NCBI GenBank assembly: GCA_947303855.1
Contig: CAMYZO010000003.1
Span: forward strand, 1 to 64,000
Reading direction: 5' to 3'
DNA from: an uncultured Prevotellaceae bacterium
GTDB lineage: Bacteria > Bacteroidota > Bacteroidia > Bacteroidales > Bacteroidaceae
DNA length: 64,000 bases
Shown here: positions 1 through 64,000 of the stretch, piece by piece
How the letters are laid out: each line of letters opens with the position of its first letter
How positions within the stretch are numbered: position 1 is the stretch's first letter
Notes under the pieces: model-generated
Databases searched by the model: none
Told to the model about the DNA's origin: nothing
The model's input: only the letters and a program-made list of their open reading frames with translations
Translations under genes and position numbers: made by a program

Positions 1-55
1 AAATCGTAAATCGAAAATCCGTAAATCGTAAATCGAAAATCCGTAAATCGTAAAT
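1..55. repeat. 22-bp tandem repeat (aaatcgtaaatcgaaaatccgt), about 2.5 copies, may continue left of the window
   Basis: Direct reading: aaatcgtaaatcgaaaatccgt x2 followed by aaatcgtaaat, immediately before the ATG at 57. Confidence 0.9.
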
Positions 56-40899: not shown

Positions 40900-43800
40900 T
40901 TATTTAACGAACAGCTTCTTTTGGTTTGCCATGTAAACGCCGGGGAGCCTGACAGGGGTTTCCACCGTCTGTCCTGACTCGAGCACGAAGTCGCGGAGCG
41001 TGATGCCGGCCACATTGACGATGCGGATGGTGACAGCATACTTCTTATGCGATATGGCCACGATGTTGCGACCACGGACATAAAACTCGATAGAGCCGTC
41101 GAGCACGCTCTCCGGACCTTGTTCCAGCTCTTCGCCGTTGGCCCCGCCGAAGATGATGCTTTGCGGTACCTGGCGACTTGAACTCGTCACAGAGGCTGTG
41201 AAGTAAGGACGGAAGGCACTCAGCGCGGGTGTCACCTTGTTTGTCGTGTTCTCAGCTGCATTGCTGCTCAGCTTGACGTAGGCATTGCCGGTGCTGTTCA
41301 TGACGTAGCTGCCCGTCTCCAGCTGTTCGTTCATGTAGCTGGGCTTGAAGGTGACGTTGTAGCTCTTGCCGCTTACGGGCTTCACCACGCCTGCCGTCTC
41401 ATCGTCGCTGATGCCAATGGCGATACCCTTATTTGATGCCAGGGTGATAATCTGCTTGCTTAGCTTGGCGATGCTGGCAGCCGTGTTCTTAGGCGTGAAC
41501 GAGCCGCTGAGGTCGAACTCGTAGTAGAGCTTACTGGGCAGACCGAGGATATACGGCGTGGCCTTTGCCAGCAGTGGGTAGGCTGCGTAGTGGCGCGGGT
41601 CTTTGTAGTACTGTCTGTACTGCAGGTAGGTGTCGGTGTTGGCATCCTGCTGGTTGTGTACAGGCTCGTTCTTGTAGTAGTAGTCCCAGAGGAAGTTGTT
41701 GGCGACCGTCTTGTCTTTGCCGTCTGCCTCCGGATAGGTGAAGGAGGCTTTTGCTACGCTGCCCTCATCTGGGACTTTGACAGCCGTGAGCTCACGCAGC
41801 CAGTATTCGTGACCCTTCTTGGTGCCGTTCTGGCTGTTGTCGCTACCCGAGTAGAAATGGGTTATCTCACCCTTCTGGTGTGTGGTCACCAGTTCGGCAG
41901 TGAACGGCACGCTGATGCCTTGCCACCCCTTCGTCTGGTCTACATACTCGCTGTTGGCAGGTGTGCGCTGGTACCACATCAGGTGGTCGGCATCGAAGGT
42001 GTAGCCTATCGGGGCGTTGAAGTCCTGCTTGTCGACGAGCAGGTGGTCGTTCGTGGCCGTCAGGCCGCTCTGCACAAGGTGGCCGTGAACGTCCGACGGA
42101 CTGGCCTCGGCAACGCGGCGGCAGACATCCGTTTCGTCGTAGTAGTCGTTATAGGCTGGCTCATCGAAGTAGCTGGCCAGCACGCCGAGGGTCTTGTCGT
42201 TGGCATCTGCCGAAGGTGCATAGACCAGCAGGTTCTGTGTCTCGTCGCAGTTCATGATGCCGGTCAGGCCGTCATCGTCGAGGAGGGGTGGGTAGAAGGC
42301 GCTCTTGCCAGCGGGTAAACCGCTGGTCACGGTGCCCAGGCCATAGGTCCCATAGGCCTTATAGGCCCCATTAGCTTCATCATAATGCCCCTTAAAGTCG
42401 ATGGCGGTCATCGGCTTTTCGCTCACTGTCTTGGTGCCATCGGCAGACTTGTAAGCCAGGTAGGCGTTCGGGTTGAAGTGTGCAACGCCCATCTCCTTCG
42501 AGCGGTAGTAGGCCGGAGCGCGATAGACGCGGTTGGCGTCGTCATCAGTGGACAGGCGACCGTCGCTGCGCACGATGGCCGACGGCAGACTCTGGTGGGT
42601 CTGTGCAGCCCAGCCGTAGGTGAGCTTCTGTCCGAAGAACAGGTAGTCGTCGGGCCAGATGGGGAAATAATAGGTCTTGTTGTTATCCTTGGTGTCAGTC
42701 CAGTGGCGCTCATCGGCTGATGTCGGAATCTCGCCTGCGGCGAAGATGAAGTCGCCGTCGGCGAAGCGATCCTCCACATATTTAATATGATTATAGCCTG
42801 ACGAGCATTCGGCGATGTTCGAGGCATACTTACCGGTCTGCGGCTCTGCTTCGCCCGGTTTCCAATACTTATAGGTCACATTGGCCCCATTAGTCCCATT
42901 AGCCCCGTCGTTGTAGCGCTTATACAGGTAGAAGTTGTTCAGGTCGTAGGCTACCTCACCGTTGTAGAAGGCGCGGTCGGGCATGGGCTTGGCCAGGCCG
43001 TGGCTGCCTGTGTCGGTGGTGCTGTAGGTCTTGCCCGTCTGGTAATAGCTGTTGACAATTTGCTTGTAACCGCTGTCGGCATTTGGAGTACCGAAGATAG
43101 CCCTTGCACTGCCATCTGGAGTGCCTGTGGTGTTGATCCAGCTGCTCTCCACATAGCCGCTGCCCTTGTTCACCACACCGGCGGTGCTGAACGAGCCGGT
43201 CACGCCGAGGTTATAGACCGAGCCGCAGAGGTTGTTGAACAGCGAGTTGTCCAGACCGCTGATGGTATGGCCGTCGCCGTGCAGCGTACCCTCGAAGCAC
43301 TGCTCATCAGTGCCTATAGGTGTCCAGCTGGATGTGTGGTCGATGTCCGTGCGCAGGAAGAACTCCAGGTTCTTTGCGCCCTTCACGCCTCTGACAAGCT
43401 TAGAGCCGTCAGACATCGTCACCTCTTCGGTGCTGTTGTTCAGCAGGGCATGGCCCTTCAGATCACCCGACTCAGCAACAGTAGTGCGCAGACTCAGGTC
43501 ATACAGATTCTTCAGCAGGTCGAGACCGTTCTCCGAGTCGGCGCTGTAGTCGTTGATGTATATCTTCGAGTCGCGCTTCAGTCGGGTGCGGTCGTAGTCT
43601 ACATGCAGGTGGTTGGCCTTGTCGTCCATCACCTTCTTCAGGTCGTGGTAGTTGGCCACGCTCACCGGCACGTGGTTCGAGTAGGTCTTGCCGAGATAGG
43701 TCTTGGCGTAGTAGGCCAGGTAGAAGCCGTCCTGATACCAGTAGAGCGGATCGGCCGAAGGTGTGTATTCCACACCGTTGGTATGGCTCTCGGCATCGCC

Positions 43801-46800
43801 CGGTGTCTCAAACAGTTCCCAGCCGCCACCGGTGACCTCGTAGGCACCCGGCGTCACTGAAGGTATGCGCATGGTGATGCCCGTACCCGGGAGCACGATG
43901 GTAGGCGGATTGATGTCGTCGACCAGAGGCACGCCACTCTTGAAGTTGATGTGGATGTTCACCACATGGCGCTCACTGACGGGTGTGATGTGGTTGCCTT
44001 CGGTATCGCTCTCCTCATAGTCGTACTTATAGATCACGGTAATGATCTTCTCGGTGGAGAGGTCGTTGATGTCGGCATTGCGGCTCACGTAGAGCGTGGT
44101 TGTCTCCATGGGCGACTCGCCGTGGATGGTGAAGTTCAGCTGCTTGTTGACCAGGCCGACGTAGTCTTCGTTAGAGATAACGATACCGGCAGGAACGTTG
44201 CCTGTTGTATAGGTTGTGCCACTGCTTACACCCTTGATGCTCTTCACCTTACCCTTGTTGGCATCATCCGCAGGGTAGTAGCCGGTGTTGATGGTGTAGC
44301 CCTCGCGGCAGTAGTACAGCGGGAGCGGATTGCCTTGAGCGTCCTTTTTGACCTCGTCAGCAGTAAACGTCAGCGTATCGATGTATTCTTTCTGCTCGTC
44401 TTCTGACAGGCGGTCGTAGGTGTCTTTGTCGATGGTAGAGCCTACAGCGTATGGGCGTTCACCGTGTACGAAGGTCTCCTTGACAATATAGTAGGTGCCG
44501 CCAGTGGCTTCCAGCTGGATAGGTGCATAATGGTGGCGCTCGTTCGGCAGGGCCTCATAGACGGTGCTAACCAGCTCGTCGTCCTTCTGAATCGATGTCT
44601 GACCTGTTTCTTCTTTGCCGCCGCGCTTCACCGTTATTCCTGTTGTCAGCGTCAACGGTGTGTCACCATTATACGTTGCCGTGTAGTTGATGGGCGTGGT
44701 GAGCGAGTACTGCGCTGCATTGGCAACGGCTCCATCATAGGTAGCAGCCTTCGAGTCGTACTGATACTTCTTGCCTGTCGTGCCGCTATACGTGGAATCG
44801 ACGAGCAGGTCGAGGGCATCGTAGTTGAAGGCGAATTTCTTGCGGTCGCTCTCCGACAAAGAGCTGTAAGCCTCCAGGGCGCGGTAGTTCTTCTTTGTCT
44901 CATAGTAGTTACCGCCATAGAGACCTGCCTTGGTACAGATGTAGGCAGGCACAATCTTATTGCTAATCTCTGCAGCAATAGCCTTGTCGGCATCAGTACC
45001 GTCTTTAAACCTATTGTAATAGGCCGTCTTCTGCTCCTCCGTCATGAGGTCGTTCACATAGATATATTCTGTCGGCGCGAGCTGGATGGTGGCGGTGCTG
45101 ACGTAGGCAGGGGCGGTGTGTCCGGTAATCGGTGCAGAAACCGGAGCACCGGGATAGTAGTGCTGACCACTTTCAGTACATTCCGTAGTCACCAGATAAG
45201 CGGAAGTAAAGGCGGCCTGATCATCAGGTGCGGGCTTGTGCGATCCCAGACTCTCATAGGCATTATACGCAGTTGCTGAGATAATCGCATTCTTGGAATA
45301 CTCCTGCTGGCCATAGAGACCGGTGGTAGTAGGATGATAGGTGGGACCGTCCTCATAGCCGCTGCCGCCAGTCTGATTCTTGGCGCGGCTCTCACTCTCC
45401 ACCTGGGTGAACCACTTGCCCCAGAGGTTGGGATTGGTCACGTTGTAGGTGAGCAGGAAGCCCTTGTCGTGGCTCATGTTGTTGCTGGAGCGGAACACTT
45501 CGTTGAAGGCCACCTTCTTCTGCATGCCAATGTGGTAAACGGAATCCGTCACTAAAGCGTTATATTGGCTCCTCAGCAGCACGCTGTCGGCAGGAAACAG
45601 CTTGTTGCCAATCTTACAGCTGTCTATGACGATGTAGGTGTCTTCTACGAACAGCTTTTTCTCGGCCGCCGGCAGCTTGTTCCAGTCCCAGTAGCTGATG
45701 GGGGTGTTGCGCTGGTAGGTCACATCGTTGATGACCAGCTTCCTGTCGCCATAGAGCGGCGTGTTGTTTGTCTCGCTCAGATAGCTGGAGTAGAAGGCAT
45801 AGAGGTTGGGCTGCACATCCATCAGCGTCATGGTGCCGTGCGAGGCGGCACTGATGGTGATGGGCAGTTCTACGGTCTTGCTGAAGGCATTGGGCGAGCC
45901 GGTGTAGGCAGAGATGTACTGGTCGTAGACATATACCGAACCGGCGATATACCAGTAGTGGGCCGGTACGCCGTCAGCTGTCTTATACCTGTTGCTGATG
46001 TTATAGCAGTCGTCGATGATGGTCTGCGTGCTGTGGATGAAGTTGCCCGACGTCTCCCACTGATAGCGCGAGCCGTCGGCGGTGGCATAGCTGTAGTCCC
46101 ATTGGGTGGCAGCACCGGTGTTCAGATCCGTCAGGGTGGTGGTCGTGATGCCCGATGTGCTTGGATGGCCGTGCTGGTTCTTGGCATAGACGAAGCCGCC
46201 GCCGATACCGGGCTGCACGTTGATGAGGTCGAGCTCTACGACACCTGTGATGGGACCCCACACCTTCTCGTTCAGACTGGTGCCGGTGCTCTCCTCTGTC
46301 GTCAGCTCCAGATAGACGCCTGAGGCCAGTGCCAGCTGGTTGTGGCAGGCGCCGTTGTTGCGGGTCTTGTCGTTGATGTGAGCCTGTTTCCAGTTATAAA
46401 AGGTGGCACCGGTTTCGCCATATTTGTAGGTCGATGTGCCAATGGTTATGTCCGACTGGTATTTCTTGGTGTCGGCATTGTTCGTCTTTCTGATATCGCT
46501 GAATTTCACGTCGCTGGTCAGCGCACCGAGGTAGTTCACCACGCTGTAGATGCCGAAGTAGTTGCCGTGTTCAGCATTATCACCCGTATCGCCGGCAACC
46601 GACGCTTTCTTGTTCAGCGACACCTCGCGCACGCGGTTGATGGTGTAGTTGGTGTAGTCGACGGCCTCTGGCACACGGTCCTGGGCTCCCTTCATCACCA
46701 TGCGGCTGCCGAACACACCGCAGAGGTCGGCACGCTGGATGGTGTTCATGATGCGGCCGGCATAAATGGATACCACGCCGTTCTGTACCCAATAGTTGGG

Positions 46801-49800
46801 GTTGGGCTCTTTCTTGCCTGCCACCGTAATCAGGATGCTGTCGCCGCTTTCCGACAGTACTGACTTTCCGTCGGGCTTAGTGAACAGTGCCAGCAGTTCG
46901 TCCATAGGCAGGTTGGCGGTGGTGGTATATTTAGTGCCGGGATAGTCGGTACACTCCTGTTGGCACTTGTACCTCACTTCATAATAAGCCTGTTCGCGCT
47001 CAGGCAGTTCCAGATAGGCATCGTAACTCAGCTCGCGGTTGCCATGATTGGTAATATAATAATAGTCGGTACCGTAGTTGGTGATGTTCAGCTCACGGTA
47101 GCCGTCGACGAAGGTCAGGTTGCCGTCGCCGTAGAGTCCGCCGGTATGACCGGTGCCGATGGTGATGAGGTCGCGGTTGTAGGCATCGTGGATAGAGGCG
47201 GTGGCGTTGCCAAAGACCGTCGTGGTGTTGGCATGGAACGAGCTACTGCCCGCAGCAATGTTTCCACCGGCGAAGACGGCGTTGTGGATGATGATGCCAT
47301 CAGGGTCGAGGTTGTCCCATACGGCTTTCGACTCCATCTTGTCCTTCAGCGAGTCAAGGTAGGCTGTGGTCACGTAGTCGCCTTTCTTATAACTGGTACC
47401 GGCTATATCCACGTAGGCCTGACAGTGGGGCTCAACCAGAACCTTGCAGTCCTCGGTGAAGATGCGGTCGGTGGTGCCTTGCTTGTTGAGGAACTTGCTG
47501 CCATCCCACTGGAAGTAATAGCCCTGGTAGTTATAATTCTCTTTATCGCTTGGAGCAATTCCCTTGTTGTAGCGTTTTCCAGCCTTCTTGCCGATGCGCA
47601 GATTGTTGCCGTCCATATAGGCACTATACACAAAGCCTTCATCGCCACCGCCGAACACGTTGCCGTAGCCGTAGGCCATGCCCTCGGCGGTGCCTATCTC
47701 GCCGCCATAGATGTTCACACAGGTCTGACCGAACACATAGCCTGTGCAGAACAGTTTTTTCGCTTTCAAGTCGTCCACTGTGGCCTGGTCCATGAACTTG
47801 GTACCGTCGCCGCCCCAGCTGTCCTTACCACGACCGCCGCCGAAGACGTTGCGCAGCACCTTGCCGTCGTACATGTTCACCTGCGTAGTACCGGCCCTGA
47901 AGATGGTGGCATCGCCATTCTCCATGCCGCTGCTGAGACCGGTGGCGTGGGCGCCGCGTCCTACAGGGCCTACCTCGCCGCCGCCGAAGAGGCTGCCGCG
48001 CACCTGACCGCCGTACATGTTGATGATGGTATTGTCTACGTAGCTGTTCACCACATAGCCGCCACCGAAGATGTTTCCCGAGAGGTCCAGGTCGCCGGGC
48101 TTCTGGTCGTCAAGCTCCTCCACGTAGGTCCCATTAGCCCCATTAGCCCCATTGGGCTTATACCTATAGCCTATATAGCCGTTGTTGAACGTAATCTTGG
48201 CGGTGCCGAAGACCGAACCGCCCTCACCGGCGCCATAGACGTTGCGGGTGATGGCCGGAGCGCCGCCCGTGAAGGTGTCGGTGCCCGACTTGCCGATGAC
48301 CACGTTGGCCGTGGCCGGGCGGTCGCCGGCATAGGTGTCCCAGATGTCGCCGGCATGGTGCCCCACATTGCCCAGATAACCGCCGCCATAGACGTTGCGA
48401 GCCGTGCCGCCCTGTACATAGGCGTTAGCGCTGGCAACGAAGTCGCCGCCCGAGAAGCTGTCGGCACCGAAGAGGTTGTCCAGGCCTCCGGCACGTCCGC
48501 CGGCATAGACATCCTTCTTCACCTCGCCACCCAGCACGGCCACGTAGGTGTTGCCGTACACGTCGCCGGAGAGGTGGACGGAGGCATTGCCCAGACCGCC
48601 GCCGTAGACGTAGCCGTCCACTACGGCCCCTTCGTTCACAATGACGTTGGTGTTGAATTTCTTCTCGTCCTTACCGTTCAGCTGGGCAGCGGTCTTGTCG
48701 TCGAGCTCGGCACGGTCGCTGAAGTGTTTCAGGTTGGTGGCGGTGTTCGTGGCATATTTGGTAAAGGGGGTTCCTGCTGTCTCTCCATTGGATGCGCCCG
48801 GCATATAGTAGCTGCCCAGCGCCCAGGCGTCTTTCCAGTCTTGATGCCAACGGTCCAGAGCAGCCGCCTTTGTAGCTTCGTTGGTCAGGTCGCCATGATG
48901 TGCCTTCCAGTAAGCATCCTGTGCGCTAATCTGCGGCGACGGCTGGTCTTTATACAGAGCCATGTAGGCCTGCACGCTGGCAGCGTTGAGCACATGGCCC
49001 ATCTCGCCGCCGCCATACACCTCATAGATGCGGGCACCCTTCAGCAGGTTCACCTCGGTGTGCTCTGACCAGGTGTCAATACCGCGTCCGGCACCGTAGA
49101 CGGTACCCGTATAGCCCTTCTCCTTGTTCTGCCATACCGGCGAGGAGATGTTCACCTGGGTGAAGAGCGACCGGCGCTCGTTGTTGTTACCGCCAAAGAT
49201 GGCCCCAAACACCTGGGCCTTCTCGCTGGTGTTCTTGTAGTTCACCTGAGTCTCATAGACATCGCAGGGCGGCAGGATATACTTGCCGTAGGCACCACCG
49301 TAGATGCTGTCTGCCTGGATGCTCGACTCCGCCGGCACGTTCACCACCGTGCGCCGCGTGATTCCCTCCTGGTAACTGCCGCCGTAGGCGTTGTGGATGC
49401 GTCCGTGGAGCAGGTCGATAATGGCTGAGGCTTCATCCAGGTTGATGGCCTTGCCCGTCTCGTCAACGGTCTTGCCGCTCTCGCTGTCGAAGCTGTAACG
49501 CATACCCAGACCATTGTAGCTACCGCCGCCGAAGACCTCCAGACCGCTGAACTTCGTCATGCCGTCGGGAATGTCTATCAGCACATAGCTGCGGTCCTGG
49601 GCACCGTCGTAGGCTCGGTTGCCGGGATAGCCGGTGCCGCCGCCAAACACGCCCTTCACCATGTTCTGCGCATGGTCCGACGGACGGAAGTTCACGAAGG
49701 CGCTGTGCTGCTCCGGCATTTTTGCCCCACTGCCATAGAGCGCCGTGTTGCTATAGTCATAGTAGCCGTAGCCGCCACCGAAGATGGTGTCTACACGCCC

Positions 49801-52800
49801 CTTCAGGTATTCCACATACGACGACGACTTCAGCACGTCGGGTATCTCGCCGGCTTTGTAGCCGTGCACCTGTGTCTTGTCGGTGTCATAGTTGCGCAGG
49901 CGGGCGGTGAAGTCATAGCCGTCTTCGTAGCCACCGTGGATGGTGCCGCCAAAGTCGTTGCCGCCATAGACAATGTCCATCACCCACGGGAAGCCGTCCT
50001 TGTAGCCGCCGCTGCCGTTGGGCTGACGACCGATATACACCTCGCTGTGGCCCAGGATGTCGGCATCGCTGGCACCGCCGAAGGCATCGTAGATGCGGCC
50101 GTTGCCTAAGTTCACAAGGGTATTGCCGCAGACGTCACCCTCGTTGCCGCCACCATACAGGTATTCTGCCTCGGCCAGGTTCTCCTCAGTGCCGCTACTC
50201 GAATAGATGGTGGCAGCTCCGTTCAGGTTCACGGTGGTGCTGTAGGCGGGGTTAAACTCATACTTCTTGGTAATGGCACCGCCCTCGCCCACCACGTCGA
50301 CGGCCTTGCCTATCACACCCTGTTCGCCGCCGCCAAAGGCCTGGAACACATAGCCGTTGTTATGGTTTATCGTGGTGCTGCCCCATATCTCTGTATTCTT
50401 ACCGTAGCCGCCGCCAAACACCGTCAGGGCAACAGCCATCAGGTCGGTGCGCTGTTCGTCGAGACTCACGCCAGAGGCCTTGCGATCGTAGATGCCCACG
50501 CCATTGCCGAACACCTCGTCGCGCTTCAGTACGTCTTCGTTGATGTTCACTACCACGTTGCCGTTCACATGACCGCTCTCATAGCAGCCGCCATAGACGT
50601 TGCCGCCCAGCAGACGGGTGTCCTTGTCTACCGCGCTGCTATCGATAGTAACGAAGTCTTCCTCATCGTTATCCCACTTGTTGGTGTTCCAGATCAGCCG
50701 TGTGTTGTCGTCATTCCAGCGCAGGGGCACGATGGTCAGGTTGTCCAGGTTGATTTCCAGACGGTCCTTGATTGCCCCGCCAGCATCGGTGTAGCTGTCG
50801 CGCTCGTCCTTTGTTCCGAGGATACCGCCTTTGTAGGCAGCATTGTAAGTGCCTGCAGCCACGTCGGCATTGTTGCAGCCGCCCACAAACTTATTGTAGA
50901 TGTTCAGACCTTCACTAATGGTGAATGTCTCCTTGCCCGGTATGGCCATACTACCCACGTTACCGCCACAGAAGAACGAGCCAACGTAGCTTGTGTAGGG
51001 CTCGTAGGTGGCACGGTCGCCGTTGTCCACATTGTCAAACACGATGCTGGGCTGCAGCGTCATCGTCACACCTTCCATATAGTTGGCAAACACGTCGGCA
51101 TCCGTCAGCGCCAAGGAACTGAACTCACGGTCGGCATAACGTTCCAGATAGTCGCTATAGACCATACCCTCACCGTTGTTGCCCAGGTAGATGTTGTCGG
51201 CCACCACGTGTGAGCCAATCTTCAGCTCTACCATCGGGTTCTTTTTCTTCGTGGCCAGCGAGGCACAGTTACCGCCCACGAAGATGGAGCCGTGAACAAT
51301 GGTGGGGTGCTTGTCGTCAGTACCGGCCAGGCGGATAGACACCTGCTCGGCATTGGGACGGAAGGCGTTGAGTGCATCGTATGATGTCTGTCCGTCTTTA
51401 ATCTTGTCACCATAGTAGAAGTCGCCATAGGTCTCATCGTCCTCCATCTCCTGGTTATCCGTGTAGGGGTAAGCGCCGTTGCCGCCACCGTAGACGTTGC
51501 CATACACATCTTTATGGATACCCACGGCATTGCCGCCATACACGATGCCCGTCACGTCGTTGCCGCCATAGACGTTGTTCACATGTCCGCCGTTCACGAG
51601 TGTTCGGGCCGACAGTTCGTTGGGGAAGTAATAGCCAGGCAGGTTCACACATGGCTTGTATTCGCCATTCACCGTTGGCTTCACATCGGCCATACGACAG
51701 CCGCCGTACAGGTTGTCCACAATCAGGGTGGAATAGTCCTTGATCTCCATCAGCAGCCCGTCGGGACTGGTCATGTTACCCTTGTTGCCGCCGCTATACA
51801 GGTTGCGTATCTTGCCCGCCAGCAGGTTCCACGTGGGGCGTATGCTCATCTCAGCCAGGTTGTTGCCGCCAAAGAAGCGGCCCACCTGGTAAGCACCGCT
51901 GCTGGGCATCGAGAAGGTGGTGTTGATGCCCATCTCCGCGAAGCGCTCGTCACTGAGCAGGTCCGTTCCATCTTCCAGCACATGGTTCACCACCGCGCTG
52001 GGGTTGTCTACATGGATAATGGCCTGCTTCTTCACCGTGGCGTTGTTGCCACCGCCGTAGGCATAGACGATGGAGCCGCCCGTCACTTCCAGATAGGTCT
52101 TGTCGAGCTCTGGGAAGTGGAAGCCTACGTCCGATGCGTCGGTCACCACCTCTGCCACTGGACTTTCGTGGTTCTTGTCGCTTCGGTTGTATATCTTGTG
52201 GGTCAGCTGCCCTGCCTTCGGTCCGTTTTCCTGCTCATAGTCGTAGTCGCCGTTGCTGCCGGCAAAGAGCTGGCCTATATACACCTTCTTGGCATCGGCA
52301 GCAGGCTTCACGTCCGCAGTGCTCTTGCCGTAGGCGGGGTTGTCGGGGTCAGATGCTGCAGCGGCTATTTCCTCAGCTGTATAGTGTGTGTCGGTGGCCT
52401 TGGTGCTCACGCGCACATAGCTGTTGAAGGTGTTGTCGACGGCATTTTTCTTCGGGTCTGTTTCGTCAGCGGTAGTGCGCTTGATGGCTGTCAGCTCTGA
52501 AGGAACGTCCTCGCCCACCGCCGCTGCCGTACCTATCTGACCGGCGATGTCGTTGCCGCCAAACACCTGGTTCACAACGATATAGTCGGGAGTAGTGGCG
52601 TTGTCTGCAGTAAAGTTCTTGCCATCAATGTGTACGAAGGTGTTGCCGCCCACATCCGCCATACGGGCGCCGCCGAACACCTTGCCTTTCTTGTTCTCAA
52701 GAGGGCGGGTGGCCTCAGGGTCAAGCACGGCACCGATGTCGCCGGCCAGCACCGTCACTTTCGTGCTGCCCTTCACCTGCCCTTGGTTGCCGCCGCCATA

Positions 52801-52941
52801 GACGTTGCCCCCAATCTTAATCTGAGCCTGAGCCGGCAAGCCCCAAAGCCCCATAAGCCCTATAAGGCCCATAAGGCCCATTAGCCCCATAGGCCCCATA
52901 AGCCCCATCGCTCTTCTTACTATGGTCTTTATCTTGCTCAA
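40900..52941 (-). CDS. Giant secreted V[YF]GGG-repeat surface protein, 4013 aa, with T9SS type A-like C-terminal tail
   Basis: Uninterrupted 12-kb ORF; unusual signal peptide (RRAMGLMGPMGLMGLMGLIGLMGLWGLPAQAQ); repeats; C-terminus VTIRIVNVAGITLRDFVLESGQTVETPVRLPGVYMANQKKLFVK. Confidence 0.93.
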   Translation of the reverse strand: MSKIKTIVRRAMGLMGPMGLMGLMGLIGLMGLWGLPAQAQIKIGGNVYGGGNQGQVKGSTKVTVLAGDIGAVLDPEATRPLENKKGKVFGGARMADVGGNTFVHIDGKNFTADNATTPDYIVVNQVFGGNDIAGQIGTAAAVGEDVPSELTAIKRTTADETDPKKNAVDNTFNSYVRVSTKATDTHYTAEEIAAAASDPDNPAYGKSTADVKPAADAKKVYIGQLFAGSNGDYDYEQENGPKAGQLTHKIYNRSDKNHESPVAEVVTDASDVGFHFPELDKTYLEVTGGSIVYAYGGGNNATVKKQAIIHVDNPSAVVNHVLEDGTDLLSDERFAEMGINTTFSMPSSGAYQVGRFFGGNNLAEMSIRPTWNLLAGKIRNLYSGGNKGNMTSPDGLLMEIKDYSTLIVDNLYGGCRMADVKPTVNGEYKPCVNLPGYYFPNELSARTLVNGGHVNNVYGGNDVTGIVYGGNAVGIHKDVYGNVYGGGNGAYPYTDNQEMEDDETYGDFYYGDKIKDGQTSYDALNAFRPNAEQVSIRLAGTDDKHPTIVHGSIFVGGNCASLATKKKNPMVELKIGSHVVADNIYLGNNGEGMVYSDYLERYADREFSSLALTDADVFANYMEGVTMTLQPSIVFDNVDNGDRATYEPYTSYVGSFFCGGNVGSMAIPGKETFTISEGLNIYNKFVGGCNNADVAAGTYNAAYKGGILGTKDERDSYTDAGGAIKDRLEINLDNLTIVPLRWNDDNTRLIWNTNKWDNDEEDFVTIDSSAVDKDTRLLGGNVYGGCYESGHVNGNVVVNINEDVLKRDEVFGNGVGIYDRKASGVSLDEQRTDLMAVALTVFGGGYGKNTEIWGSTTINHNNGYVFQAFGGGEQGVIGKAVDVVGEGGAITKKYEFNPAYSTTVNLNGAATIYSSSGTEENLAEAEYLYGGGNEGDVCGNTLVNLGNGRIYDAFGGASDADILGHSEVYIGRQPNGSGGYKDGFPWVMDIVYGGNDFGGTIHGGYEDGYDFTARLRNYDTDKTQVHGYKAGEIPDVLKSSSYVEYLKGRVDTIFGGGYGYYDYSNTALYGSGAKMPEQHSAFVNFRPSDHAQNMVKGVFGGGTGYPGNRAYDGAQDRSYVLIDIPDGMTKFSGLEVFGGGSYNGLGMRYSFDSESGKTVDETGKAINLDEASAIIDLLHGRIHNAYGGSYQEGITRRTVVNVPAESSIQADSIYGGAYGKYILPPCDVYETQVNYKNTSEKAQVFGAIFGGNNNERRSLFTQVNISSPVWQNKEKGYTGTVYGAGRGIDTWSEHTEVNLLKGARIYEVYGGGEMGHVLNAASVQAYMALYKDQPSPQISAQDAYWKAHHGDLTNEATKAAALDRWHQDWKDAWALGSYYMPGASNGETAGTPFTKYATNTATNLKHFSDRAELDDKTAAQLNGKDEKKFNTNVIVNEGAVVDGYVYGGGLGNASVHLSGDVYGNTYVAVLGGEVKKDVYAGGRAGGLDNLFGADSFSGGDFVASANAYVQGGTARNVYGGGYLGNVGHHAGDIWDTYAGDRPATANVVIGKSGTDTFTGGAPAITRNVYGAGEGGSVFGTAKITFNNGYIGYRYKPNGANGANGTYVEELDDQKPGDLDLSGNIFGGGYVVNSYVDNTIINMYGGQVRGSLFGGGEVGPVGRGAHATGLSSGMENGDATIFRAGTTQVNMYDGKVLRNVFGGGRGKDSWGGDGTKFMDQATVDDLKAKKLFCTGYVFGQTCVNIYGGEIGTAEGMAYGYGNVFGGGDEGFVYSAYMDGNNLRIGKKAGKRYNKGIAPSDKENYNYQGYYFQWDGSKFLNKQGTTDRIFTEDCKVLVEPHCQAYVDIAGTSYKKGDYVTTAYLDSLKDKMESKAVWDNLDPDGIIIHNAVFAGGNIAAGSSSFHANTTTVFGNATASIHDAYNRDLITIGTGHTGGLYGDGNLTFVDGYRELNITNYGTDYYYITNHGNRELSYDAYLELPEREQAYYEVRYKCQQECTDYPGTKYTTTANLPMDELLALFTKPDGKSVLSESGDSILITVAGKKEPNPNYWVQNGVVSIYAGRIMNTIQRADLCGVFGSRMVMKGAQDRVPEAVDYTNYTINRVREVSLNKKASVAGDTGDNAEHGNYFGIYSVVNYLGALTSDVKFSDIRKTNNADTKKYQSDITIGTSTYKYGETGATFYNWKQAHINDKTRNNGACHNQLALASGVYLELTTEESTGTSLNEKVWGPITGVVELDLINVQPGIGGGFVYAKNQHGHPSTSGITTTTLTDLNTGAATQWDYSYATADGSRYQWETSGNFIHSTQTIIDDCYNISNRYKTADGVPAHYWYIAGSVYVYDQYISAYTGSPNAFSKTVELPITISAASHGTMTLMDVQPNLYAFYSSYLSETNNTPLYGDRKLVINDVTYQRNTPISYWDWNKLPAAEKKLFVEDTYIVIDSCKIGNKLFPADSVLLRSQYNALVTDSVYHIGMQKKVAFNEVFRSSNNMSHDKGFLLTYNVTNPNLWGKWFTQVESESRAKNQTGGSGYEDGPTYHPTTTGLYGQQEYSKNAIISATAYNAYESLGSHKPAPDDQAAFTSAYLVTTECTESGQHYYPGAPVSAPITGHTAPAYVSTATIQLAPTEYIYVNDLMTEEQKTAYYNRFKDGTDADKAIAAEISNKIVPAYICTKAGLYGGNYYETKKNYRALEAYSSLSESDRKKFAFNYDALDLLVDSTYSGTTGKKYQYDSKAATYDGAVANAAQYSLTTPINYTATYNGDTPLTLTTGITVKRGGKEETGQTSIQKDDELVSTVYEALPNERHHYAPIQLEATGGTYYIVKETFVHGERPYAVGSTIDKDTYDRLSEDEQKEYIDTLTFTADEVKKDAQGNPLPLYYCREGYTINTGYYPADDANKGKVKSIKGVSSGTTYTTGNVPAGIVISNEDYVGLVNKQLNFTIHGESPMETTTLYVSRNADINDLSTEKIITVIYKYDYEESDTEGNHITPVSERHVVNIHINFKSGVPLVDDINPPTIVLPGTGITMRIPSVTPGAYEVTGGGWELFETPGDAESHTNGVEYTPSADPLYWYQDGFYLAYYAKTYLGKTYSNHVPVSVANYHDLKKVMDDKANHLHVDYDRTRLKRDSKIYINDYSADSENGLDLLKNLYDLSLRTTVAESGDLKGHALLNNSTEEVTMSDGSKLVRGVKGAKNLEFFLRTDIDHTSSWTPIGTDEQCFEGTLHGDGHTISGLDNSLFNNLCGSVYNLGVTGSFSTAGVVNKGSGYVESSWINTTGTPDGSARAIFGTPNADSGYKQIVNSYYQTGKTYSTTDTGSHGLAKPMPDRAFYNGEVAYDLNNFYLYKRYNDGANGTNGANVTYKYWKPGEAEPQTGKYASNIAECSSGYNHIKYVEDRFADGDFIFAAGEIPTSADERHWTDTKDNNKTYYFPIWPDDYLFFGQKLTYGWAAQTHQSLPSAIVRSDGRLSTDDDANRVYRAPAYYRSKEMGVAHFNPNAYLAYKSADGTKTVSEKPMTAIDFKGHYDEANGAYKAYGTYGLGTVTSGLPAGKSAFYPPLLDDDGLTGIMNCDETQNLLVYAPSADANDKTLGVLASYFDEPAYNDYYDETDVCRRVAEASPSDVHGHLVQSGLTATNDHLLVDKQDFNAPIGYTFDADHLMWYQRTPANSEYVDQTKGWQGISVPFTAELVTTHQKGEITHFYSGSDNSQNGTKKGHEYWLRELTAVKVPDEGSVAKASFTYPEADGKDKTVANNFLWDYYYKNEPVHNQQDANTDTYLQYRQYYKDPRHYAAYPLLAKATPYILGLPSKLYYEFDLSGSFTPKNTAASIAKLSKQIITLASNKGIAIGISDDETAGVVKPVSGKSYNVTFKPSYMNEQLETGSYVMNSTGNAYVKLSSNAAENTTNKVTPALSAFRPYFTASVTSSSRQVPQSIIFGGANGEELEQGPESVLDGSIEFYVRGRNIVAISHKKYAVTIRIVNVAGITLRDFVLESGQTVETPVRLPGVYMANQKKLFVK
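52841..52908 (-). repeat. 9-bp repeat tract encoding the signal-peptide hydrophobic core of the 4013-aa protein
   Basis: ccccaaagccccataagccctataaggcccataaggcccattagccccataggccccataagcccc on the plus strand. Confidence 0.9.
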
Positions 52942-52950
52942 TGCTCTCCT

Positions 52951-54081
52951 TTATTCAATAGTCACCGTCGGGTCGTTCAGGTCGGGCTCCGACAGCATAT
53001 ACAGATATGTTGGTCTGATAGTCATGTTTATCGTGTAGCGACAGCCTCGGCGGGTAGTCTTCTGACCCGTGAACAGTTCGCTTAGTTCCATCGTGTTGGT
53101 GGCCATGCAGCCCTGCCGTATCAGGTTCCCCTTCTTGTCATACACATCATAGACGCTGGTCAGTATGAGCGTGGTGATGTCCTGCGGCATGAAGTGGCCC
53201 ACGTAGTTGCTGAACTCCGTGGTCAGCGTCTCGCCGTTGCGCGATGACCAGAACTCCAGCGGCTCAGTGATGGCTCCGCCCCTTGGGGTGTAGGTGATGC
53301 TCTGGATAGGGCTCTCGCCTTCCGTTCCTTTCAGGTCAACGAGAATGTCTGCCTTCGTGGTGCTCGTCGTCTCGCCAGCCTGTGTCTTCATGCGCAGCGA
53401 CTTCAGCTTGATGGTGCGCAGGGCATCATAGTCGGCATGCACCTTCATCTTGATGCGCAGGGCGGCGTAGAGGTGGTCGAACAGCAGGAACACGTAGTTG
53501 CCGGCATCGCCGCTGCCGTATATAGCCTGGGCGCTGTAGCTGAAGTCACCGCTGCGCAGTCCTGTCACGGTCTCGGCGTCTGTGCCGTCTTTGGCGCCTA
53601 TCACTACACACAGGTCACCGCTCATCACTGCCGGCACGTTCTGTAGTGTCACTTTGGCTCCGCTGCTGTAGTTGGCATGGGCGTCGTTGCGGACGGCAAT
53701 GCTGAATTTTACGCCAGGGTTGTAGGGCACATAGCCATAGAGGTAGTAGGTGTCGGCAGTAATCTCCTCCAAGCTCGTGCGCCACTTACCGCTGCTCTTA
53801 AAAAAGGAACCCATCTTCGGTTCCTTTCCGTCTTGGGTAAAGGCAATGCCGATAGATTTGTCAGCCTCATCAAACAGCGAGTAGCCGCCTGGAGGGCTCC
53901 AAGCCCGAGTAGCCCCATGAGCCCCATTGGCCCCATAAGCCTCCTCAAACCCAGCTACAAACCCCCGAACCTCAATCGAAGCCAAAGCCGGTAGCCGCTC
54001 CTCCTCAGAGGAGCACCCCATAAGCCCCATAAGCCCCATGAGCCCCAAAAGCCTTCTTACTATGGTCTTTCTGTCTTTCAA
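52951..54081 (-). CDS. Fimbrillin-like lipoprotein
   Basis: Lipobox LMGLMGLMGCSS; TYYLYGYVPYNPGVKFSIAV...FDHLYAALRIKMKV typical of Bacteroidales fimbrillin-like proteins; 10-bp gap to the giant gene. Confidence 0.65.
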   Translation of the reverse strand: MKDRKTIVRRLLGLMGLMGLMGCSSEEERLPALASIEVRGFVAGFEEAYGANGAHGATRAWSPPGGYSLFDEADKSIGIAFTQDGKEPKMGSFFKSSGKWRTSLEEITADTYYLYGYVPYNPGVKFSIAVRNDAHANYSSGAKVTLQNVPAVMSGDLCVVIGAKDGTDAETVTGLRSGDFSYSAQAIYGSGDAGNYVFLLFDHLYAALRIKMKVHADYDALRTIKLKSLRMKTQAGETTSTTKADILVDLKGTEGESPIQSITYTPRGGAITEPLEFWSSRNGETLTTEFSNYVGHFMPQDITTLILTSVYDVYDKKGNLIRQGCMATNTMELSELFTGQKTTRRGCRYTINMTIRPTYLYMLSEPDLNDPTVTIE

Positions 54082-54093
54082 TTCTTTTTTCCT

Positions 54094-55269
54094 TTACCAG
54101 TTATACACCGTCCTGTCCACTTCCATCTCTGTCCAGGGGGTCACTGCCGACTCCACCCAGCCAATCTCCACACCGCCTTCGTCGGTAATCTTGAAGATAT
54201 AGGTGTAGCTGTAGCCTGGCAGCCACTGCATATACTCTGCCGGCACGGCAGCAGTCTTCTTTTCGCTATTTACTTTCACGGTCAGTGTATAGCTGCCCTG
54301 TGCCGGGTTGGTCAGCACCATATACCAGCCGTTGTCCGTCTCCGTATAGGTCTTACTGTTATCCTCCGGGTCGTAGTCCTCGGTGAAGGCCTCTAACTGC
54401 GCAGAGTCATCGGCCCCAGGGGTCATGGCATAGCTCTCTGTCGTGGCTGTGCCCGTAGTGGGATAGCTGACGGTTACCGTGCCCTTGAGGGTTATCGCCT
54501 TACTGCCGTCAGAAGGCTTGAAGCCGATAACCTCCAGCTTGATGCCCTCGCGCGGAAACACATACTTAAATAGGAATCGCACGCGCGCGAAGGGCTTCAG
54601 GAACTCCAGCGTCACGGGTTTCCCAAACTGCTTGTCGGGGTAAGCCACCGGGTCGCCCGTCGAGAACCAAAGCCGCGAGAAGTATGGTGCAGTAGCAGTG
54701 CTCTTGGCATCAGCCTCGAAGCTGTACTCATGAGTCTCATAAGCCCCATTAGTCCCATAAGCCCCAGTGGCTCCATAAGTCTTATAGGCCCCAGCCTCTC
54801 CCGTCACCGCAAAAAAGCGGTATGCCCTGGCGCTCCAGTCCCAGAACTTGATAGTCTGAGAAGGTTTGCTCGTCAGCAGATACTCCCAGCCGCTGCTGTT
54901 AGTAGTGGTAGTGGCGGCACTGTTGTCCTGCCACGCCACGGTATAGCCCTGGAAGACGGTCTGCGTGCCGTCGTAGGCCCCGGTCTCCCCAGAATAGCTC
55001 ATGTTCTTGAAGCCCCAGACGGTGAAGCTGGTAGCCGTCGCACTAAGCGGCACCGAAGCCCGGGTCCCCCGGCTTATTTCCTCCTCGGCGCTCTCCAGCG
55101 CCGAAAAGGCGATAGCAGTCCCAGTCTCCACAGGAGGCTCCTCCGGCTCAGCAGAGCCAGCCCCCCCACTGTCCCCAGAGCACCCCATAAGGTCCATTAG
55201 CCCCATTAGCCCCAGTGGCCCCATTAGCCTCATAGGCCTCATCAGCCCCATAAGCCCCAAAAGCCTCAT
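54094..55269 (-). CDS. Fimbrillin-family lipoprotein
   Basis: Lipobox LMDLMGCSG; SQTIKFWDWSARAYRFFAVTG and YSYTYIFKITDEGGVEIGWVESAVTPW, motifs shared with the 739-aa fimbrillin. Confidence 0.78.
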   Translation of the reverse strand: MRLLGLMGLMRPMRLMGPLGLMGLMDLMGCSGDSGGAGSAEPEEPPVETGTAIAFSALESAEEEISRGTRASVPLSATATSFTVWGFKNMSYSGETGAYDGTQTVFQGYTVAWQDNSAATTTTNSSGWEYLLTSKPSQTIKFWDWSARAYRFFAVTGEAGAYKTYGATGAYGTNGAYETHEYSFEADAKSTATAPYFSRLWFSTGDPVAYPDKQFGKPVTLEFLKPFARVRFLFKYVFPREGIKLEVIGFKPSDGSKAITLKGTVTVSYPTTGTATTESYAMTPGADDSAQLEAFTEDYDPEDNSKTYTETDNGWYMVLTNPAQGSYTLTVKVNSEKKTAAVPAEYMQWLPGYSYTYIFKITDEGGVEIGWVESAVTPWTEMEVDRTVYNW

Positions 55270-56189
55270 CCCAAGCCTCCTTTCCGGCTAATCTCAGCTT
55301 TTATCGCGGCGATGCGCGCTTTCAGCGCAGCATTCTCCGCTTTCAGCGCGGCGTTCTCCGCTCTCAGCGCAGCATTCTCCGCTCTCAGCGCGACGTTCTC
55401 AGCTTCCAGCTCCGCTATGCGGCCCTTCTGGTCGTTGCGGTAGCCCAGACGGGCGGCGGTCATCTGTTCGCGGATGCCTCCCTGTTCTACGAAGTCCATC
55501 TGCAGGCGGTCCAGCAGGCGGCCCATGAGGTTGTCGTACTGGTGAATCAGCGTGATGGCAATGTTGCAGAGAGCCTCTGGCGACCGCTTGTCGATGTCCT
55601 TGGTGTAGTCCTCCGGACGGTTGTGCTTCTTGCTGAACTCTTGTATCTGCTTGGTACGAGGGTCGTCCAAGGACCACTGCTGCAGACCGCGGGTACGCAG
55701 GTAGTCCTCATAGTCACCCAGCACCTCGTGCATGCTGGCGCGAGCCACGCCCAACAGCTTGATCTCCGTCTCAGAGGAGGTAGAGGCGGCAGAACACCCC
55801 TCAATGATGTTCTGCTTCCCAGAGCGCGCAGCCTGAACCACCTGGTCAATCGTACGGTCCTTACGCTCCACGAAGTAGTGGTGAGCAAAGTAGTAGGTAA
55901 CGTCATAAATACACTCCGACTTCTTGTACACCAGCAGATCCCGGTAATTACCCTTCTTAGGCAAGAAAGGCTTAGGCTCCAAAGGCGGCCGCCCCTGCCC
56001 AGAAGCCCCAGAAGGCTCATGGGTATCATTAGCCTTATTGGTCCCATTAGCCCCAGTGGCCTTATTAGTCCCATTAGTCCCATTAGCCCCAGAAGCCCCA
56101 TTGGTCCCATTAGCCCCATTGGTCCCATTGGTCCCATTAGCCCCATTAGCCTCATCAGCCCCATTACCATGATTACTCCAATTGCTCAT
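55266..56189 (-). CDS. Four-helix-bundle (S23-like) protein with NGTNGANG linker and heptad coiled-coil C-terminus
   Basis: VVQAARSGKQNIIEGCSAASTSSETEIKLLGVARASMHEVLGDYEDYLR; probable start at 56189 (MSNWSNHGNGADEANG); 4-bp overlap with the downstream gene. Confidence 0.78.
   Translation of the reverse strand: MSNWSNHGNGADEANGANGTNGTNGANGTNGASGANGTNGTNKATGANGTNKANDTHEPSGASGQGRPPLEPKPFLPKKGNYRDLLVYKKSECIYDVTYYFAHHYFVERKDRTIDQVVQAARSGKQNIIEGCSAASTSSETEIKLLGVARASMHEVLGDYEDYLRTRGLQQWSLDDPRTKQIQEFSKKHNRPEDYTKDIDKRSPEALCNIAITLIHQYDNLMGRLLDRLQMDFVEQGGIREQMTAARLGYRNDQKGRIAELEAENVALRAENAALRAENAALKAENAALKARIAAIKAEISRKGGLG
55305..55410 (-). repeat. 21-bp tandem repeat encoding AENAALR/K heptads
   Basis: AELEAENVALRAENAALRAENAALRAENAALKAENAALKARIAAIKAEI. 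Confidence 0.85.
56028..56169 (-). repeat. Longest 9-bp repeat tract, encoding (NGTNGANGTNGA)n linker
   Basis: Plus strand ...cccattagtcccattagccccagaagccccattggtcccattagccccattggtcccattggtcccattagccccattagcc. Confidence 0.9.
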
Positions 56190-59878: not shown

Positions 59879-61341
59879 GGCGCGGCCCTCCTTTCCCCAG
59901 AAGCCCCATTCCCCGCCCTCCGGTAGAGCAGGTCATAGCTCAGCGTGATGCCTACGCGTGTGGGCCCCAGCCAGTTAAAGCGGTACTGCAGCTCCTTGAA
60001 GTCCTTGGCGCGGCCCGTCCACTTATAGTAGTACAGATCGTCATGGTAGCTGGGGTTGACGGGGTTCTCATACTGGAAGGGGTCGTGCTTGGCAGTGAAC
60101 CATCCCACTTGCAGGCTGAAGTCCAGTCGCCAGTGGCCATTGCGGCTGACGGGCACCACATACCCGGCCCCCACGCCAGCGCCAAACCCATGTCCGCGCC
60201 AGCCCTTGTTTTCGTTAAAGCCAATCTCAAAGAGCCCCCCATGGCCATAGCCCATCAGGTAAAGTCCGCTGAAGGCGGGCTTCCCAGAAGCCCCATTGGC
60301 CCCAAGAACCCCATGAGCCCCAAAATAATACCGCCCCTCCACCTGATAATTCCTAATCTCAAAGAACTTATGCCGCCCATAGTCCACCCACCAGGGGAAG
60401 TCCACCGAAGCGCCAAAGGTAAAGTGCCCGCCCTTAGGGTAGTACTCCACCGCCACGTTGGGTATGGGGCACCAGCGGTTATAGCCCGGCATGTAGACCC
60501 CGTAGAACAGCAGGTTCGTCTTCAGCGACAGCAGTTCTCGTCGCGGTAGGCGCGATGGTGTCGCCGGCAGCTGCGGCAAAACGGTGAGGTATAGTGAGTC
60601 GGGCAGCGGCAGCGAGTCGGGCAGCCCATGCGACGGCCTTTCTATGGCAATAGGGTCGGCGCCAGGCATTCGCCTGAAATAGAGCAGCATGCGGGCAGCA
60701 CGCAACTGCGGGAAATAGTCGCGCAGCAACCGCTGCCAGAGCTGTCCGTCCTCCGCACGCATCAGCCTGTCTTTCAGTTCGCCGTAGCCGTCGCTGCGGT
60801 GGTAATTGTCATAGAGCTCCTGTACAATCGGGTAGGCCGGGTCGCCGGCCCGCTTCATCATGATACAGAGCGAGCGGTAGTCTTCCACCTCCACATGCCC
60901 CACAAACTGTCTCTCGCTGACAGGTGTCTCCAGGTACTCGTTGAAGAAGTCGTAGAGAGCCTTGGCGCGGTTCACGCCCAGCTTGCGATTGTTTTCAAAA
61001 GGACCTTCGGGCGAGGCAGCGCCGCGCAGCAGCACGCGGTAGAGCTGCAGGCGGTCTCTGTTGAGCTGCGGTATCAGCTCGTCGCGCCAGCGGCGGAGTA
61101 GGGCGCTGTTCTCGGGCAGGTCGTACCTGTTGACCGTAAAGATCACCTTCGCCGCATCGTCGAGAAACTCCTCGTCGCTGACGGCGATAGAATCATCAGT
61201 TTCAATGAACCGGATATAAGGGAATTGTGCATAATAGGCAGAGTCGCGCATAACAGCAACATCGGCCATTGCCTTGCCTGGCCATGCGAGAATCAGGAAA
61301 AGCAGCGACAAGAGTGTATGTGTTATCTGACGTGTGCCCAT
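59875..61341 (-). CDS. OmpA-like / DUF3575-like outer-membrane protein
   Basis: Signal peptide; LQLYRVLLRGAASPEGPFENNRKLGVNRAKALYDFF (OmpA-like), LLSLKTNLLFYGVYMPGYNRWCPIPNVAVEYYPKGGHFTFGASVDFPWW (DUF3575-like). Confidence 0.8.
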   Translation of the reverse strand: MGTRQITHTLLSLLFLILAWPGKAMADVAVMRDSAYYAQFPYIRFIETDDSIAVSDEEFLDDAAKVIFTVNRYDLPENSALLRRWRDELIPQLNRDRLQLYRVLLRGAASPEGPFENNRKLGVNRAKALYDFFNEYLETPVSERQFVGHVEVEDYRSLCIMMKRAGDPAYPIVQELYDNYHRSDGYGELKDRLMRAEDGQLWQRLLRDYFPQLRAARMLLYFRRMPGADPIAIERPSHGLPDSLPLPDSLYLTVLPQLPATPSRLPRRELLSLKTNLLFYGVYMPGYNRWCPIPNVAVEYYPKGGHFTFGASVDFPWWVDYGRHKFFEIRNYQVEGRYYFGAHGVLGANGASGKPAFSGLYLMGYGHGGLFEIGFNENKGWRGHGFGAGVGAGYVVPVSRNGHWRLDFSLQVGWFTAKHDPFQYENPVNPSYHDDLYYYKWTGRAKDFKELQYRFNWLGPTRVGITLSYDLLYRRAGNGASGERRAAP

Positions 61342-62118: not shown

Positions 62119-64000
62119 ATGGAACAGAAACAGTATAAGCGGACGACCGTAACGTCGGCCCTGCCCTATGCTAACGGCGGGGTGCATATCGGTCATCTGG
62201 CTGGCGTCTACGTGCCGGCCGATATCTATGTGCGCTATCTCAGGCTGAAGAAGCGCGAGGTGTTGTTCATTGGCGGCTCCGACGAGCACGGCGTGCCCAT
62301 CACGGTGCGTGCCCGCAAGGAGGGTATCACGCCGCAGGATGTGGTGGACCGCTACCACAAGATGATCAAGGACTCGTTTGAGGAGTTCGGCATCTCGTTC
62401 GACATCTACAGTCGTACCACCAGCGAGACCCACCATAAGTTTGCCGCCGAGTGGTTCCGCAAGCTCTACGACGAGGGCAAGCTGGTAGAGGAGACCACCG
62501 AGCAGCTGTACGACGAGGAGGCCAAGCAATTCCTGGCCGACCGCTACGTGATGGGCGAGTGCCCCCACTGCCACAACGAGAACGCCTATGGCGACCAGTG
62601 CGAGAAATGCGGTCGCGACCTGAGTCCCACGGAGCTCATCAACCCCCGCTCCACCATCAGCGGCTCGACACCCGTGCTGAAGAAGACCAAGAACTGGTAT
62701 CTGCCCCTGAACGAGTATCAGGACTGGCTGAAGCGGTGGATTCTGGAGGAGCACAAGGAGTGGCGCCCGAACGTCTACGGCCAGTGCAAGTCGTGGCTCG
62801 ACATGGATCTGCAGCCCCGTGCCATGACGCGCGACCTGGACTGGGGTATCCCCGTCCCCGTGGACGATGCCGAGGGCAAGGTGCTCTACGTATGGTTCGA
62901 CGCCCCCATCGGCTATGTCAGCAACACCGTTGAGCTGTGTGCCAGGGAGCCGGAAAAGTGGGGCAACTGGGAGAAATGGTGGCAGGACGAGGACACCCGC
63001 CTCGTTCACTTCATCGGCAAGGACAACATCGTGTTCCACTGCATCATCTTCCCCACGATGATGAAGGCACACGGCGGCTATATCATGCCCGACAACGTGC
63101 CGGCCAACGAGTTCCTGAACTTAGAGAACGACAAGATCTCGACGTCGCGCAACTGGGCCGTGTGGCTCCACGAGTATCTGGTAGACATGCCCGGCAAGCA
63201 GGACGTGCTGCGCTACGTGCTGACGGCCAATGCCCCTGAGACCAAAGACAATAACTTCACCTGGAAGGATTTTCAGGACCGCAACAACAACGAGCTGGTG
63301 GCCGTCTATGGCAACTTCGTGAACCGTGCCCTCCAGCTGACGAAGAAGTACTGGGGTGGGGTAGTGCCCGCCTGCGGAGAGTTGCTTGACGTTGACCGCC
63401 AGGCCCTGGCAGAGTTCAAGGACGTCAAGGAGAAGGTGGAGCGCCTGCTGGAGCAGTTCAAGTTCCGCGACGCCCAGTTCGAGGCCATGAACCTGGCCCG
63501 TATCGGCAACAAGTATATCACCGACTGCGAACCGTGGAAGGAATGGAAGGCCGCCCCCGACCCCTCCGAAGGAGGGGAGTGGCTGCACGGTCCGAAGCGT
63601 GTGGAAACCATTCTGAATATCTGCTTGCAGCTGACGGCCAACCTGGCCATCGCCTTCGAGCCGTTCCTGCCGTTCTCGTCGAAGAAGCTGCGCGACATGC
63701 TTAACATCGAGAGCTTTGAGTGGGAACAGCTGGGCCAGACCGACCTGCTGAAGCCCGGCCACCAGCTGGGCGAGCCCGCCCTGCTCTTCGAGAAGATTGA
63801 GGATGAGGTGATACAGAAGCAGCTTGACAAGCTGGAGAAGACAAAGAAAGATAATGAGGCCGCAGCCTATAAGGCTGCCCCCATAAAGGGTACCTGCTCG
63901 TTCGAGGACTTCGAGAAGCTTGACATCCGTGTGGGCCTTATCAAGGACTGCCAGAAGGTGAAGAAGTCGAAGAAGCTGCTGCAGTTTACCATCGACGACG
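62119..64000 (+). CDS. metG: Methionyl-tRNA synthetase, truncated at the window end
   Basis: [34 protein letters not shown]; zinc region [18 protein letters not shown]; start of the C-terminal tRNA-binding domain [32 protein letters not shown] stays open to 64000. Confidence 0.96.

Follow-up and report, generated by a model that had tools for sequence, protein, structure and literature searches.

The PGRS repeats of mycobacteria are dispersed G-rich repeats of the 9-bp type that encode Gly-rich tripeptides, and they are restricted to PE_PGRS genes, where they are read in essentially one frame. Among shorter repeats, the GGGNATC heptamers of Xanthomonas and Nostoc form genome-wide G-rich short tandem arrays with variable unit number (Rehm et al. 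2015, PMC4692102), located mostly between co-directional ORFs, with a C-rich sense strand <50 bp upstream of ORFs, and scarce in coding sequence (PMC4692102). Rickettsia palindromic elements (RPE) are repeat DNA present in frame in many unrelated protein genes (reviewed in PMC10969869), and the tolA gene of E. coli contains an in-frame repeat that changes an envelope protein according to how many units it has (PMC3477136).

The repeat described here is a degenerate nonamer, CYYATNRGN, that is C-[CT][CT]-A-T-n-[AG]-G-n in a 9-bp register, and it shares some properties with each of these systems. The GGGNATC heptamers are the nearest described family, being likewise genome-wide and placed between aligned ORFs with a C-rich sense strand near starts (46 cases versus 11 for the nonamer), but their unit is 7 bp rather than 9 bp, and the core of the nonamer is C..AT..G, not GGG. 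Moreover, whereas the heptamers are under-represented in coding DNA, 18 of the 24 nonamer sites in the genome under study (G000) are coding, in five frames that include signal peptides. The RPE are the nearest case of repeats joined in frame to many genes, although they are single palindromic elements of ~150 bp, whereas the nonamer forms tandem 9-mers that lack terminal inverted repeats. For an effect of unit number on an envelope protein, tolA is the closest precedent, but there the repeat belongs to one gene and lies outside the signal peptide, whereas the nonamer is a dispersed family. Use in five frames also separates the nonamer from the PGRS. We found no published description of the nonamer motif, nor did searches with the exact repeat strings and for dispersed 9-bp or nonanucleotide repeats return a paper on the family among the matches listed, in a body of literature that included few subscription journals.

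The window, the whole stretch of 64,000 nucleotides analyzed, includes a neighborhood that we take to be a Bacteroidales fimbrial operon, with DUF3575, DUF5119 and fimbrillin-like lipoprotein families identified by profile search. To our knowledge, signal peptides or loops built from repeats are not a described feature of such operons. The last gene encodes a giant protein whose N terminus is MSKIKTIVRRAMGLMGPMGLMGLMGLIGLMGLWGLPAQAQ, i.e. MSKIKTIVRRA-MGLMGPMGLMGLMGLIGLMGLWGL-PAQAQ, and its features are as follows.

40900..52941, minus strand: ORF of the giant surface protein, 4013 aa, last gene of the fimbria-like operon.
52822..52941, minus strand: segment coding for the signal peptide (MSKIKTIVRRA, the array and PAQAQ), with a TTG start and predicted cleavage AQA-Q.
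52841..52912, minus strand: eight nonamer units (reverse complement: ATGGGGCTT type) coding for the core MGLMGPMGLMGLMGLIGLMGLWGL, found by TRF and motif scan.
48130..48156, minus strand: three-unit GAN-frame array within the giant protein (PNGANGANGTYV), at aa ~1600, found by motif scan.
42877..42903, minus strand: three-unit GAN-frame array within the giant protein (DGANGTNGANVTYK), at aa ~3350, found by motif scan.
42340..42374, no strand assigned: degenerate four-unit array within the giant-protein gene, found by motif scans.

Run without knowledge of the motif, TRF placed the signal-peptide array at 52838-52908 with a period of 9, 8.0 copies, an 85% match and a score of 100; together with the translation, this confirms the proposal of an earlier sequence-only reading that the hydrophobic core is the 9-bp repeat itself. 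The array is imperfect, its eight units having diverged from each other. The same reading had described the giant protein as made of tandem MGL repeats, which is incorrect, as MGL is confined to the signal peptide and the protein beyond it contains VYGGGN-type motifs instead. The assignment of a signal peptide as such is supported by Sec-like parts recognizable in the sequence, namely an n-region with a net charge of +4 ahead of the core (given the TTG start), an h-region consisting of the 24-residue MGL core, and the putative cleavage motif AQA-Q that follows, which aligns with the ordinary cleavage region of the orthologs. The TTG is presumably the start codon of the giant protein; the first ATG falls within the array, and a start there would leave out the charged n-region. 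The best 12 residues of the core have a Kyte-Doolittle (KD) value of 1.98 versus 2.3-3.15 in repeat-free orthologs, lower than most of them although the MGL core is longer. Being longer but less hydrophobic, the MGL core may give a weaker signal than the repeat-free ones; the giant surface protein is probably still a Sec substrate by virtue of this signal peptide, in which the unit number would set the core length. A Pfam and NCBIfam profile search gave no family match for the giant protein and no match to a type IX sorting-domain model, and an Rfam search of window positions 40000-64000 gave no match.

Further arrays of the same kind are present in neighboring genes, and an 18-bp segment is common to the giant-protein gene and the next gene upstream.

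52913..52930, minus strand: 18-bp segment AAAGACCATAGTAAGAAG, coding for KTIVRR, ahead of the giant-protein array, with an exact match in the upstream gene.
54053..54070, minus strand: second copy of the 18-bp segment AAAGACCATAGTAAGAAG, an exact match, before the array of the 376-aa lipoprotein.
54017..54052, minus strand: four-unit array forming the core and lipobox of the 376-aa lipoprotein (KTIVRRLLGLMGLMGLMG followed by CSSEE), found by TRF and motif scan.
53905..53940, minus strand: four-unit GAN-frame array (EEAYGANGAHGATRAW) in the 376-aa lipoprotein, found by motif scan.
55184..55264, minus strand: nine-unit array forming the core and lipobox of the 391-aa lipoprotein (MRLLGLMGLMRPMRLMGPLGLMGLMDLMG followed by CSG), found by TRF and motif scan.
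54727..54780, minus strand: six GAN-frame units within one loop of the 391-aa lipoprotein, where G022 has a C-rich-strand array.
56043..56168, minus strand: 14-unit GAN-frame array near the N terminus of a four-helix-bundle protein (TIGR04258/TIGR02436), found by TRF and motif scan.
60283..60327, minus strand: five-unit array within a DUF3575-protein loop (RYYFGAHGVLGANGASGKPAF), a site at which relatives have C-rich-strand arrays.

In the arrays at 54017 and 55184, the last unit itself supplies the lipobox LMG-C, and the lipoboxes that follow arrays in relatives read LIG-C, LMS-C and LMG-C. The 18-bp segment AAAGACCATAGTAAGAAG has two exact matches where 0.01 would be expected, and it or a near-identical segment also precedes arrays in the relatives G022, G222 and G181. 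Its presence in both the giant protein and the adjacent lipoprotein suggests that a signal-peptide segment was copied locally between adjacent genes.

That the repeat is a DNA element dispersed throughout the genome, and read in five frames, escaped the sequence-only reading. The unit takes forms such as NCTNATGGG, or (CCCATAAGT)n when written as tandem DNA, and C-rich (CCCATAAG) and G-rich (CTTATGGG) units are mixed within a single 9-bp register. Across the whole of G000, a three-unit pattern gave 84 + 39 matches compared with 5 + 1 for a reversed-pattern control, and the genome holds at least 24 separate arrays on ~19 contigs, with ~10 of these in the window. In loci of four genomes that together span ~734 kb, the C..AT..G skeleton with 9-bp spacing was found as 77 arrays versus 0 in the reversed sequences; these loci were picked for having arrays, so their density does not stand for the genome as a whole. 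The arrays are bare tandem units in 3-26 copies, and in those examined we saw no common flank, terminal inverted repeats or target duplication of the sort that would place them with elements of the MITE or RPE type. In G121, three arrays (L403 11275-11410, L385 6080-6161 and L379 9224-9349) pass from G-rich to C-rich units with the 9-bp register kept, forming long imperfect inverted repeats. A unit selected as a hairpin is not supported, as covariation at positions 3/6 and 2/7 favors non-palindromic pairs.

The five coding frames of the array are MGL, GAN/GTN/GAY, AHE/HES/PHK, SDP/LAP and PIS. Between adjacent units of GAN-frame arrays, 51% of the amino-acid-changing positions N6/N9 differ compared with 17% of synonymous positions, and the corresponding values for PHK-frame arrays are 50% and 11% (95% confidence intervals of the difference, 0.20-0.52 for GAN and 0.29-0.51 for PHK); the synonymous-site conservation in these figures is inflated by the array finder, which needs five of seven consensus bases per unit, whereas N6 and N9 are unscreened, and motif-blind TRF recovers the same arrays. 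Taken singly, the synonymous positions of GAN-frame neighbors differ in 2% (position 1), 0% (position 4) and 50% (position 7), and those of PHK-frame neighbors in 11% each. Given that the residue-changing positions vary and most synonymous ones are kept, the conserved entity of the arrays is the DNA, not the peptide. The MGL core of the giant protein is very probably one insertion or expansion of this dispersed degenerate 9-bp DNA repeat, which has spread through a Prevotella-group genome and many of its relatives. Under such a scheme, arrays would originate and spread through gain and loss of units and copying between arrays, and selection would retain them where the frame fits. Signal peptides would keep the hydrophobic MGL and LAP frames, loops and linkers the hydrophilic GAN and AHE frames, and 5' gaps the C-rich sense strand, which is poor in AUG.

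The placement of the arrays follows the same lines. Signal peptides contain the MGL or LAP frames, and the GAN/GTN, AHE/HES, SDP/LAP and PIS frames are found inside proteins. In G000, five of the 18 coding sites are in signal peptides (the giant protein, the two window lipoproteins, and MKRFLSSLLAPLALLAPSTAHA and MNKASIKALLAPLAPLAPLVLLALLAPLALSAQ on other contigs), an excess with p ~6e-6 at an assumed base rate of 1.5% of coding DNA. The frame is hydrophobic in 5/5 of these signal-peptide arrays versus 2/13 internal ones (Fisher p=0.0025), in a frame-by-location table made by hand on the calls of a simple gene caller. Where arrays occupy gaps between co-directional genes, they mostly run from the upstream stop codon to near the next start, and their sense strand is C-rich in 46 cases versus G-rich in 11, seven of the latter being signal-peptide or coding arrays shortened by the gene caller. 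The G-rich strand would offer an AUG every 9 nt, a plausible reason for the C-rich sense strand in gaps. A first impression from G022, that the start codon is fixed to one array register, was discarded when a larger set showed phases 3 and 6 where the array contains ATG and other phases elsewhere. The gaps upstream of rimM, ftsW/rodA-like, ubiE-like and gldL/M-like genes have arrays in more than one species (G000 and relatives), the rimM gap, for example, in both G022 (L126) and G023 (L087), and the recurrence of arrays in orthologous gaps indicates that some array sites are old or have been hit repeatedly.

We compared unit number between species, using one genome per species. The giant protein was found in 53 of 200 congeners, and its closest orthologs, in G107 (79% identical) and in G162 and G074 (72-74%), are without the array. 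These three have an ordinary signal peptide, MRR(V/F/Y)ITILI..LLSTIVAQGQ (MRRVITILIVVLLSTIVAQGQ), and array-free orthologs align with the window protein from IKIGGNVYGGGN on. The orthologs in G222, G217, G172 and G128 contain 2-8 imperfect units, with the register differing among them, that in G022 has ~11 units followed by LLLLLAMPVRAQ, and that in G163 has six units, reversed, upstream of a normal signal peptide. A similar range is seen in the lipoproteins, with orthologs of the 391-aa protein extending from 0 units (MKYGHIIIMAMLMSTAC) up to nine units ending in LMG-C, and lipoprotein orthologs overall having 0-10 units (e.g. MKYGHIIIMAMLMSTAC versus MRGLKKLMGLIGPMRPIGLMGLIGPIGLIGLMGC); for the lipoprotein that precedes the giant gene, the count is ten in G022 and eight in G074. 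In some species the DUF3575-protein loop is short, and in others it holds G-rich- or C-rich-strand arrays; one loop of the 391-aa protein behaves alike. G179 and G090 have flanks that are ~95% identical around a C-terminal coding array, within which the two differ in length by 36 bp and 9 bp. Judged from these alignments, the variation in unit number between species is real.

Variation of this kind lies at the center of the strongest alternative, put forward in the sequence-only reading, by which the array is a contingency locus where 9-bp slippage alters the core length within a population and thereby tunes secretion of the giant protein. We regard this as possible but rather unlikely. In its favor, the core consists of the repeat, species differ in unit number both here and in the two adjacent lipoproteins, whole-unit indels separate close species in another array (G179/G090), and the E. 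coli tolA repeat demonstrates that intragenic unit number can alter envelope function (PMC3477136). However, most of the eight units have diverged, so slippage should be slower, and identical unit families also occur without a secretion role, in loops, in cytosolic proteins and between genes. A 9-bp unit keeps the frame whatever the copy number, which rules out on/off switching by frameshift and sets the array apart from contingency loci at which a change in unit number switches a frame or promoter.

The distribution of the arrays across genomes bears on a second alternative. Arrays were matched in 98 of 398 congeners, most having 0 and the maximum being 268 matches (G121), and sister genomes can differ sharply (17 matches in G222 versus 2 in G107; 29 in G122 versus 0 in G217). 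A methionyl-tRNA synthetase tree requires six changes of the array-rich label, at least five of them forced by well-supported branches, compared with a shuffled mean of 9.5, which indicates that array richness is clustered yet quick to turn over. Arrays built on the C..AT..G skeleton, mostly with a T spacer, are present in a single distant family within the phylum, and also on contigs named Muribaculum, Planctomicrobium, Schlesneria, Lentisphaeria, Akkermansiaceae and Chlorobaculum; single matches such as those in Copromonas and Streptomyces are probably unrelated coding repeats of the GPMGPM type or chance.

A mobile repeat, with arrays inserted or extended by a dedicated enzyme (RAYT-driven, RT-driven or similar) that recognizes the C..AT..G nonamer, would be in keeping with dispersal that is patchy among close species (at least five to six state changes), with similar arrays in other phyla, with C-rich and G-rich units in one register and with the same sites being hit on either strand. 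Even so, we consider it unlikely, as neither a flanking target duplication nor an associated gene was found. Y1 transposase and reverse transcriptase families gave no or marginal matches in the array-rich G000, G022 and G121 and good matches in the array-free G010 and G016, and we rejected both as array generators, their presence not tracking array richness. Equally doubtful is the broader proposition that a self-spreading nonamer (C-YY-AT-nR-G-n), inserted and extended by dedicated machinery, is a recurrent source of signal peptides, lipoboxes and surface loops according to frame, in similar form in Prevotella, Muribaculum, Chlorobaculum, Planctomycetes and Lentisphaeria.

A third alternative is that GGG runs every 9 nt are selected for G-quadruplex (G4) formation, as proposed for the GGGNATC heptamers. 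The GGG-N6 spacing fits a G4 pattern, and the intergenic placement and strand bias resemble those of the Xanthomonas and Nostoc heptamers (PMC4692102), but the three C/G positions of the unit are kept at 96, 86 and 73% versus 98 and 94% for A4 and T5, and CCT and CTT units, which break GGG, are common, which makes this reading highly improbable. We give least credence to selection on the peptide, by which MGL and GAN tripeptide repeats were born separately in each gene through slippage and kept as useful peptides, for although frames are hydrophobic in signal peptides and mostly hydrophilic in loops, and 9 bp keeps the frame, one DNA consensus is found in five frames and between genes, GAN and PHK synonymous positions are kept while residue-changing ones vary, and independent slippage would not give a single 9-mer.

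With the dispersed DNA repeat as the preferred reading, export signals have been rebuilt from a genome-wide repeat, repeatedly, in orthologous genes of close species, and the natural series of 0, 3, 4, 8, 9 and 10 units provides material on how core length relates to secretion or to the sorting of lipoproteins. Finding one strict DNA consensus in five frames also makes the source and spread of a 9-bp repeat a testable matter. Many stretches of Prevotella proteins such as 'MGLMGL', 'GANGTN', 'PISPIS' and 'HESHET' can be annotated as one DNA repeat rather than as separate motifs.

Other repeats were observed alongside the nonamer. In metG (plus strand, window ~63440-63490), a 12-residue insertion that replaces KTDP is missing from 28 relatives and has the look of another dispersed repeat, GC-rich and palindromic, inserted in frame; at nearly the same site, metG of G217 (locus L431) has a different insertion, GVKSEELRVKSEGRSA, apparently a third type of in-frame dispersed repeat. 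The four-helix-bundle protein ends in a 21-bp tandem repeat (LRAENAALRAENAALKAENAALKA, coiled coil; window 55292-55410), and window positions 1-55 form a 22-bp tandem repeat, AAATCGTAAATCGAAAATCCGT. In G022 (L116 5360-5410), a further short degenerate repeat, made up of a run of TTGAGAATTGAAAATTGATAATTGATAATTGA, lies directly upstream of an MGL-array lipoprotein gene.
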